Below are positions 15,861-17,307 of a DNA stretch of 45,409 bases, piece by piece; the first letter of the stretch is position 1; each line of letters begins with the position of its first letter. The position numbers and the translations under genes are program-made. The notes beneath the pieces are model-generated. The model made no database searches. It had not been told where the DNA came from and was given only the letters and a program-made list of their open reading frames with translations. The DNA is from Roseiarcus fermentans (GTDB lineage Bacteria > Pseudomonadota > Alphaproteobacteria > Rhizobiales > Beijerinckiaceae): positions 1 through 45,409 of the forward strand of contig NZ_QNRK01000051.1 of the NCBI RefSeq assembly GCF_003315135.1, given 5' to 3'.

Positions 15861-15882
15861 TCGCCGAATGCGGCCCACGAAT

Positions 15883-15930
15883 CCCTTCTCCCCTTGCGGG
15901 AGAAGGTGGCGCGAAGCGCCGGATGAGGGG
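15883..15930 (+). repeat. REP-like double palindrome, left flank of the DUF559 gene
   Basis: CCTTCTCCC/GGGAGAAGG (loop CTTGC) is followed by GGCGC/GCGCC (loop GAA) and the tail GGATGAGGGG. The mirror-image copy lies at 16306-16359. The ATG inside GGATGAGGGG is the likely start codon of the DUF559 gene. Confidence 0.85.
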
Positions 15931-16519
15931 TTCGCTCGCTCCGTCGCGTTATCCCGTTTCCCCAACCGCCAAGGCGAACGCCCGCGCGATGCGCAAGGCG
16001 CCGACGGAGGCGGAACGGGCGCTTTGGCATATGCTGCGCAGCCGGCGTCTCGCGGCGATGAAATGGCGCCGCCAGGTCCCGCTCGGTCCGTTCATCGTCG
16101 ATTTCGTCTCGTTCGAACACCGGCTGATCGTCGAGTGCGACCGCGCCCAACATGCGGACAATCCGCATGACGCCGCCCGCGACGCGTGGCTGCGCGCGCA
16201 GGGCTTCGCTATCCAGCGTTTCTGGAACCACGAGATTCTCCAGCAGGCCGCGCACGTGGCCGACACGATTCTCGCTCGCTGCGGGTTGCCGTGGTGCGCG
16301 GCCGACCCCTCATCCGTCGTCGCTTCGCGACGCCACCTTCTCCCGCAAGGGGAGAAGGGATGCGCCGCCGAGACGGCGTGGGAGGAGGTCAACTCAACTT
16401 TCTCCGTCCGTTCGCGAGGCCCGACTCCAGCCGGATTTGCATCAAGGTCATCAACCACTTCGGCGACGAGGTGCAGAAGGTTTTTCGGGTGTGAGGGTTC
16501 GCCTCAGGCGGTCCCCTGA
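15923..16519 (+). CDS. DUF559 (Vsr/restriction-nuclease-like) protein
   Basis: A protein of 198 residues from ATG 15923 with a DUF559 domain: LRSRRLAAMKWRRQVPLGPF, IVDFVSFEHRLIVECDRAQH, and DAARDAWLRAQGFAIQRFWN ending HEIL. This is a PD-(D/E)xK-like fold related to Vsr mismatch endonucleases. The candidate catalytic residues D (IVDF), E and D (VECD) and QH are kept. The family function is unproven. The ATG lies inside the left REP-like palindrome, and the frame runs on through the right palindrome (16306-16359), so the last 70 residues are repeat-derived and probably dispensable. A frame upstream to 15794 is open but is not family-like. Confidence 0.75.
   Translation: MRGSLAPSRYPVSPTAKANARAMRKAPTEAERALWHMLRSRRLAAMKWRRQVPLGPFIVDFVSFEHRLIVECDRAQHADNPHDAARDAWLRAQGFAIQRFWNHEILQQAAHVADTILARCGLPWCAADPSSVVASRRHLLPQGEKGCAAETAWEEVNSTFSVRSRGPTPAGFASRSSTTSATRCRRFFGCEGSPQAVP
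16306..16359 (-). repeat. REP-like double palindrome, right flank of the DUF559 gene
   Basis: Inverted copy of the left element: CCCCTCATCC, a GTCGC/GCGAC stem, then CCTTCTCCC/GGGAGAAGG around a GCAAG loop. Together with the left copy it frames the DUF559 domain almost exactly. Confidence 0.85.
16420..16494 (+). pseudogene. 3' remnant of a gene, possibly a DNA methyltransferase C-terminus
   Basis: The plus-strand frame ending at TGA 16492-16494 reads ...DSSRICIKVINHFGDEVQKVFRV. It looks like the end of a real protein and does not continue convincingly upstream, where it meets the right REP element. 'IKVI(N/D)xxGDEVxKV' is an ending I associate with site-specific DNA methyltransferases of type III-like systems. 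With the Res-like fragment at 15735 it suggests a destroyed restriction-modification locus. Confidence is low because it rests on about 22 residues. Confidence 0.3.
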
Positions 16520-16897: not shown

Positions 16898-17030
16898 CTC
16901 CCTCTCCCATATGGGAGAGGGAAAGCCGGGCGAAGCCCGGCAGGGTGAGGGTCCGGAACACCGACGGTCGGCGTGGCGAACCCTCACCCGGCCGCTTCGC
17001 GGCCTGCCTCTCCCCAAGAGGGGAGAGGGG
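16898..17030. repeat. 'empty' inverted pair of REP-like palindromes
   Basis: CCTCTCCCATATGGGAGAGG, then GCCGGGC/GCCCGGC, then GGTGAGGGT. After about 27 bases this is mirrored by ACCCTCACC, CCGC/GCGG and CCTCTCCCC/GGGGAGAGG. The architecture equals that of the DUF559-flanking pair (pyrimidine-rich stem, GC stem with GAA loop, TGAGGG tail), but with no gene between the copies. Confidence 0.85.
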
Positions 17031-17078
17031 AATCAGCGCGGCTGGCGGCTACAAAGTGAAAGCGTGATGTAACTCCCA

Positions 17079-17307
17079 AGCCGGCAGCGAACAGCGCCGT
17101 CATCGCGAGCGAAGCGAAGCGATCCAGGGCCGCTGGGCCGCTGTTGCGCCCTCTGATCGTCCCGCCGCCCTTCGTTGCGAGCAGAAGACGGAGCGATTTT
17201 TTCCGCAGGAGGCAAGCGGCGGCATGGGTTGCTTCGTCGCTTCGCTCCTCGCAATGACGGGGTTGGGAGTAACAACGTGACAGGTTTGGGCGCCCAAGTC
17301 CTTGAAA
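17079..17307 (-). repeat. MITE-like element, copy A
   Basis: About 229 bp matching 28263-28491 in reverse orientation at roughly 95% identity (12 mismatches counted by eye, no gaps). It contains CGTCATCGCGAG and CTCGCAATGACG near opposite ends. TGTAACTCCCAA (17068-17079) and TTGGGAGTAACA (17263-17274) form near-perfect terminal inverted repeats about 207 bp apart. No protein is encoded. Confidence 0.85.

Follow-up and report, generated by a model that had tools for sequence, protein, structure and literature searches.

A DUF559 nuclease gene between inverted double palindromes in Roseiarcus fermentans, a probable small mobile element resembling REPIN/RAYT systems

Introduction

Repetitive extragenic palindromic (REP) sequences carry a GTAG tag, according to the title of PMC3733652, and inverted REP doublets (REPINs) of the layout described below are proposed, in the accessible part of PMC3116915, to be the substrate of the REP-associated tyrosine transposase (RAYT, or TnpA-REP). 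Here we describe a gene of the DUF559 family (PF04480) that lies between two mirror-image double palindromes in a 45,409-nucleotide stretch of the Roseiarcus fermentans genome (contig NZ_QNRK01000051.1; ‘the window’). Palindrome, DUF559 gene and palindrome together form, with a probability that we put at about two in three, a small mobile element similar in its way of life to REPINs and RAYTs, in which the enzyme is a PD-(D/E)xK nuclease. The function of DUF559, a widespread Pfam family, is still labelled unknown, and for many families of palindromic repeats no mobiliser is known; should our reading be correct, both questions share one testable answer.

The locus resembles a REP/REPIN system with its RAYT (as presented in the accessible part of PMC3116915) in having a nuclease gene near inverted palindromes, gene-less doublets dispersed through the genome, and remnants consisting of a single palindrome. 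The enzyme here, however, is of the PD-(D/E)xK (Vsr-like) type, whereas RAYT is an HUH Y1 transposase, and the palindromes are C-rich/G-rich with a GGRTGAGGGG-like tail; inspection by eye of the two window copies (15878–15931 and 16305–16364) found no GTAG at the palindrome foot. A Pfam search of the window unit returned DUF559 and a weak match to MTES_1575, and no Y1 HUH (IS200/IS605-like) transposase. Because the defining enzyme was tested for and is absent from the unit, the latter is not a RAYT system, and the comparison with RAYT and REP drawn in an earlier note on this DNA holds as a likeness rather than as membership.

Insertion sequences (IS) with miniature inverted-repeat derivatives share with this unit its terminal inverted repeats, its probable internal-deletion derivatives, which would be non-autonomous, and its filled and empty sites, but the unit is only ∼0.5–0.7 kb long and contains no DDE or HUH transposase, and no consistent target-site duplication was visible by eye at sites whose flanks have diverged. 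The homing endonuclease I-Bth0305I (PDB 3r3p) is, after 3hrl, the nearest relative in fold and sequence with a characterised name; the DUF559 genes read here are intergenic and have inverted ends of their own rather than being intronic, and because site and ends are thus wrong the unit is not a classical homing element. Vsr and Caulobacter VsrA share the fold, and VsrA is a DUF559 protein that is needed, according to the accessible part of PMC12907096, for the DNA-damage response after loss of a cytosine methyltransferase, which suggests that the family is able to damage DNA in vivo; T:G mismatch repair, the activity of Vsr, nevertheless leaves paired palindromes and gene-less doublets unexplained. 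Escherichia coli YcjD is annotated as DUF559, and PDB 3hrl matches the family profile (E = 1.1e-37), but in the strains that were read ycjD is placed between sapF and fabI, with palindromes of the window type downstream only. No known family passed its own test of membership, while the way of working of the unit resembles that of REPIN/RAYT systems. A search of the open PubMed Central library, which is incomplete (preprints and subscription journals lying outside its scope), found no paper joining DUF559 with REP, although a prior report is possible; papers there that mention both DUF559 and palindrom- concern other subjects by title (Aliivibrio quorum sensing, NAD metabolism).

The window locus

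The features of the locus are the following, in window coordinates.

15878–15931, plus strand: left double palindrome, comprising a hairpin at 15884–15906 (CCTTCTCCCCTTGCGGGAGAAGG), a GC stem at 15908–15920 and a gene-ward tail, GGATGAGGGG, at 15921–15930
15923–16519, plus strand: DUF559 reading frame, 198 codons and a stop; the confidently predicted fold spans residues 14–119
15968–16282, plus strand: DUF559 (PF04480) domain, predicted Vsr-like PD-(D/E)xK nuclease
16305–16364, minus strand: right double palindrome, an inverted copy of the left one, with its tail at 16306–16315, a GC stem, and a hairpin at 16336–16358
16900–17030, no strand assigned: separate gene-less doublet, in which a related palindrome is present as two inverted copies (CCCTCTCCC..GGGTGAGGG / CCCTCACCC..GGGGAGAGGG); right edge approximate

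The earlier note had placed the gene between two mirror-image double palindromes, and the sequence bears this out: the arms at 15878–15911 and 16331–16364 are 34 nt long and 97% complementary, and the tails at 15917–15931 and 16305–16319 match in inverted orientation over 15 nt (93%). In each copy a 9-bp hairpin (CCTTCTCCC/GGGAGAAGG) is accompanied by a short GC stem and by the tail, which is directed toward the gene. Both fold better than shuffled sequence (z of −3.4 and −3.7; for either copy, 1 of 200 shuffles was equally good). Two copies of the hairpin core lie in the window, where 0.23 would be expected, and 4 of 100 shuffles reach that number. The core is rare in the 6.79-Mb genome, being found at eight places (its reversed pattern at none). 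DUF559 genes border three of those eight; two are the window copies and the third is on contig C22. The gene-less doublet lies ∼0.5 kb downstream of the unit and was placed by matches to arm and tail.

The DUF559 match has an E-value of 7e-35 (Pfam, in a 241-residue frame). An ATG at 15923 does lie within the left palindrome's tail, as the earlier note had proposed for the start codon, but the arrangement is not general: among 57 palindrome-flanked relatives an in-frame ATG falls inside the left palindrome in four, and is the sole ATG before the domain in one, and we reject a general role of the palindrome as provider of the start codon. The reading frame was also rightly said to run through the right palindrome, reaching its stop at 16517–16519; that part is predicted with low confidence (predicted local distance difference test of about 40–70 past residue 120). 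The same 57 relatives have their stop before the right palindrome in 24 cases and inside it or past its start in 33.

The R. fermentans genome contains 10 matches to PF04480, namely six full-length copies, one truncated copy, two halves of a single interrupted gene, and one helicase fusion. Inverted double palindromes surround most of these genes and differ visibly from one gene to the next. When the six full-length copies were scored as described below (the truncated, split and fusion matches being left unscored), they gave 96, 39.5, 40, 13.5, 43.5 and 45, so that five of six pass the level of 15.

Flanking palindromes are enriched at DUF559 genes

As a score we used the best inverted repeat between the 350-nt flanks of a gene, at levels of 15 and 20. 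A nearer-relative set comprised the best 80 of at least 533 confirmed relatives, reduced to 79 scoreable loci by one flank that was too short (L079). Flanks were taken from the edges of the domain for DUF559 and from the ends of the reading frame for control genes. A score of 15 was reached by 57 of the 79 DUF559 loci and by 5 of 341 control small genes in the same loci (at 20, by 52 and 2, respectively), and DUF559 outscored every control gene of its own locus in 58 of 76 loci. Control windows in these loci average about 10, and a sliding control window exceeds 35 in seven of the 79 because further palindrome pairs are nearby. Single loci of the 80-member set from a Chloroflexota metagenome-assembled genome (MAG), Methylobacter and a Geobacteraceae MAG score 27–39; those from Cupriavidus, a Bacteroidetes MAG and a record titled Bacillus fall below 15.

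Because that set had been drawn with the window's relatives as query, we took a second, class-wide sample. DUF559 was found in 43 of 115 genomes, and the sample was formed from the 40 best-ranked full-length matches outside the window's own genome, leaving out 12 lower-ranked ones and passing over two matches at contig edges and two with an internal stop; one locus (L349) was dropped, leaving 39. Of these, 35 score at least 15 and 26 at least 20; among 477 sliding windows the corresponding numbers are 6 and 0. In both samples, then, palindromes flank DUF559 far more often than other genes or windows of the same loci, the comparison on which the earlier note had hung its proposal.

From a plasmid collection we picked 16 loci. 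Those reaching 15 belong to Deinococcus (3 of 3), Pseudanabaena, Picosynechococcus, Azospirillum lipoferum and Sphingomonas parapaucimobilis; the nine below 15 come from E. coli (two), Lelliottia, Pseudomonas aeruginosa, Azospirillum brasilense, Sinorhizobium, Synechocystis, Thermoactinomyces and Photobacterium. On a tree of 161 DUF559 proteins, the 34 that are palindrome-negative at the score used are clustered (18 changes versus 31.1 in shuffled trees, with 0 of 500 shuffles as low), on an alignment of few columns with many forks unresolved. Such clustering is as expected if some lineages, for example a seven-row Mesorhizobium clade, have stabilised, which may be the case.

Palindrome layout was read in 140 palindrome-flanked loci drawn from overlapping and thus non-independent sets. 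A hairpin of at least 7 bp lies within the repeat in 117, and its first-read arm is C-rich in 111 of the 117. In 82 loci a tail was made out between hairpin and gene and in 17 it lay outside, while in 41 no tail was recognised. Typical palindromes have the form CCCTCTCCC-loop-GGGAGAGGG, then a spacer or second stem, then GGGTGAGGGG. Outward tails, opposite to those of the window copies, characterise L003, L094 and the pairs of one Mesorhizobium genome (G047), and both orientations form units or pairs. In Pseudanabaena and Picosynechococcus (L362, L363), DUF559 lies amid palindromes of the form CCCCCAATTCTGGGGG with a G-run tail.

Gene and palindromes are present or absent together

The earlier note had called for homologous sites lacking the unit, and such sites are present in sphingomonads, Mesorhizobium and Deinococcus. 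In the sphingomonads, pdhC was matched in 145 of 149 genomes searched and the gap between pdhC and lpd was read in 70. Eleven gaps contain a DUF559 match: in ten it is a full domain flanked by arms left and right, and in the remaining gap it is a fragment with arms on one side. Any arm of the searched patterns is present in only 4 of the 59 gaps without DUF559 (Fisher test, 6e-10); in five of those 59 no lpd motif was found and up to 900 nt of following sequence was scanned instead. Six gaps consist of just 8–12 nt up to the lpd motif.

In Mesorhizobium, a three-gene island (A-B-C) was read in 50 of the 97 genomes that have gene B; 39 were parsed and 11 that could not be placed were dropped. 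DUF559 occupies the B-C gap in 14 of the 39, with both hairpins in ten. Filled gaps measure about 670–700 nt, and in 13 of the 39 genomes the gap is empty of both gene and arms, at 102–165 nt. DUF559 sits in the A-B gap of nine genomes, each time flanked by arms left and right; in three, this gap contains a gene-less inverted palindrome pair. By eye, single-hairpin scars are visible in the B-C gap of two loci. Other families of palindrome pairs (ATCTCCCCCC..GGGGGAGAT type and TCGCCCCCGCC.. type) occupy the same A-B and B-C gaps in further strains (L236–L285), and the spot therefore looks like a hot spot for palindromic elements. Two Mesorhizobium genomes have a pair of DUF559 units ∼1.08 kb apart flanking one small gene (L126/L136 and L139/L145).

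Filled and empty versions are likewise found at the Deinococcus hpaB and paaD-paaZ sites (empty: D. radiodurans and D. deserti; strain QL22), and D. wulumuqiensis has a truncated DUF559 at these neighbourhoods. At homologous sites, then, the gene and its palindromes are present or absent together. The units read at the sphingomonad, Mesorhizobium and Deinococcus sites are intergenic, often directly past a stop codon; none of them was seen inserted at a conserved recognition site within a gene, intron or intein. In the window's own genus, relatives of the left neighbour gene in four genomes (five of eight such loci read) have no DUF559 within ∼1.5 kb and show little further synteny.

Gene-less palindrome pairs

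Six Mesorhizobium genomes contain 12–125 copies of the hairpin and none of the reversed pattern. Many copies are arranged as dispersed inverted doublets, the layout of REPINs; in G047, 40 of the 50 hairpins listed form inverted pairs ∼94 nt apart. Fourteen gene-less pairs were read as sequence. In the family with inward tails, seven of nine interiors match the subterminal sequence of units, on at least one side, above all 100 shuffles (L306 and L307 fail), and five of eight pairs in the G047 family match the left flank of that genome's DUF559 gene L094. The latter match is weaker evidence because the L094 flank itself looks like a broken pair. From these sequence matches, gene-less pairs are probably deletion derivatives of units. 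Across 146 Mesorhizobium genomes, the number of hairpins is weakly correlated with the number of DUF559 genes (rho = 0.24). In the seven genomes where DUF559 was not matched the median is 9 hairpins, versus 29 in the others; both figures are uncorrected for kinship.

The DUF559 protein

The window protein belongs to DUF559 by a profile match above the curated cut-off and by its D, E-x-D and QH residues. The earlier note's observation that these are kept extends to other sequences: they are invariant in 34 aligned ones, among twelve invariant columns that include D60, E71-x-D73 and Q76-H77 (numbered from the methionine at 15923), and we take them to be catalytic. The confidently predicted domain matches 3hrl and 3r3p, the latter a known homing-family fold (E = 2.8e-4, template-modelling score by target 0.71–0.75). 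Vsr structures 1cw0 and 1vsr are weaker Foldseek matches (E of 0.03–0.05), with mitoribosome chains ranking between 3r3p and Vsr; B-subunit chains of cholera and heat-labile enterotoxin (E of 0.3–0.8) were set aside as chance matches. By sequence and predicted structure, therefore, the protein is a PD-(D/E)xK nuclease like Vsr and I-Bth0305I. The gene is under purifying selection: among 22 Mesorhizobium copies the median ratio of nonsynonymous to synonymous divergence (dN/dS) is 0.069 over 214 pairs (17 of 231 pairs outside the dS limits were dropped).

Interpretation and alternative explanations

In the mechanism that we propose, the inverted double palindromes would be the cognate ends of the DUF559 nuclease, which most likely nicks or cuts them in their extruded hairpin form; the probable setting is single-stranded DNA at replication forks. 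In this way the unit would be copied or moved into intergenic sites, often behind a stop codon, and gene-less inverted pairs, as REPIN-like passengers, would be served in trans by the nuclease and copied or moved likewise. The idea that the nuclease travels with palindromes as its ends, put forward in the earlier note, gains support from both the enrichment and the joint presence and absence.

Several observations weigh against this mobile-element reading. No movement or cleavage was observed, and the action of the nuclease on the palindromes, the single-strand step and the route of insertion are inferred. Palindromes occur in two orientations, with tails gene-ward or outward, for which we offer no explanation. 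We found no clean empty site for the unit in the window, and no consistent target-site duplication was seen by eye at filled and empty sites, whose flanks have diverged. Just seven of the 16 plasmid-collection loci reach 15, and five of 12 outside Alphaproteobacteria. Among the 14 Mesorhizobium B-C gaps holding DUF559, two have one hairpin and two have none of the searched type; hairpins, up to 34 of them, persist in some genomes where DUF559 was not matched, and are absent from four genomes that have DUF559. Palindromes and proteins covary weakly, with a within-genome rho of 0.55 (86 of 2000 permutations as high) and 0.156 over all pairs, which is not above every one of 500 shuffles. Finally, ycjD stays at its one place in most E. 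coli strains.

A different history, which we consider unlikely, is that the palindrome pairs are older and spread by other means, and that a homing-type DUF559 nuclease entered them, cuts those that lack the gene, and uses recombination at the shared palindromes to spread. It would account for the fold of I-Bth0305I being the nearest characterised one, for hairpins being more numerous than DUF559 genes, for gene-less pairs and gene-bearing units alternating at one Mesorhizobium gap, and for the resemblance of the L094 flank to a broken pair. Yet the empty pdhC-lpd, hpaB and paaD-paaZ sites that were read are without any pair, which suggests that the unit brings its palindromes with it, and the unit-interior sequence retained in gene-less pairs is what deletion derivatives would show. 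The stable hairpins on either side of the gene, together with the role of VsrA in Caulobacter described above, could also be taken to mean that the palindromes are paired terminators or RNA structures insulating a potentially toxic nuclease gene and kept by selection on expression. The same palindromes are present in tens of copies, many as gene-less inverted pairs, and the palindrome-negative proteins cluster on the tree, which makes this quite improbable.

The proposed use of REP doublets by RAYTs raises the further thought that these are ordinary REPs moved by a RAYT elsewhere in the genome, with DUF559 along for the ride. Among 12 palindrome-DUF559 genomes, Y1_Tnp (PF01797) matches were found in four, one of which has 11; the other three have weak, partial or stop-broken matches only, and no match was found in eight. 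As the association is moreover with DUF559 across the class-wide sample, we consider such hitchhiking very improbable. Least credible of all is coincidence, whereby palindromes common in genomes happen to lie near small genes: palindromes are indeed repeated in genomes, and seven loci have high-scoring control windows, but the same-locus control genes and windows rule out such a background.

Beyond the window, we are inclined, on balance, to see DUF559 nucleases as the mobilisers of a class of palindromic elements found so far in Pseudomonadota, Deinococcota, two cyanobacteria and one Chloroflexota MAG and, as part of the same claim, to see that class as a second, non-homologous invention, with a Vsr-type enzyme, of the REPIN/RAYT life style. 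If this is true, it explains palindrome families in RAYT-less genomes, it means at least two origins of REPIN-like parasites, with unrelated enzymes, and it offers for study a compact nuclease whose hairpin substrates can be predicted.

Other observations

Searches beyond the bacterial loci yielded little: eight phage records were returned, none covering 80% of the query; Rfam gave 0 matches in six sources; and PADLOC gave weak matches only. DUF559 adjoins a cysS-like gene at six loci (L053, L067, L081, L082, L113 and L117), five of which score below 15, and is followed by a cimA-like gene in L082 and L113; both names come from a reading of protein ends.

A second repeat, present in the window at 17069–17273, recurs (205 nt, 91% identity) within a DUF559 gene on contig C31 (L008/L009) of this genome, which it interrupts; there it is an insertion that broke a DUF559 copy.

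In E. coli, ycjD was matched in 3365 of 5426 genomes; the strains read have it between sapF and fabI. The species was not supported as a source of clean empty sites: the ycjD-less strains L230, L232 and L233 carry efflux genes behind sapF, where eefRABCD is reported in the accessible part of PMC12817139. The ycjD start (L224, L225, L231) lies inside another kind of palindrome (TCACCTCATTCTGACA.. type), with C-rich/G-rich palindromes downstream, and one strain (L235) has an IS1 within ycjD.
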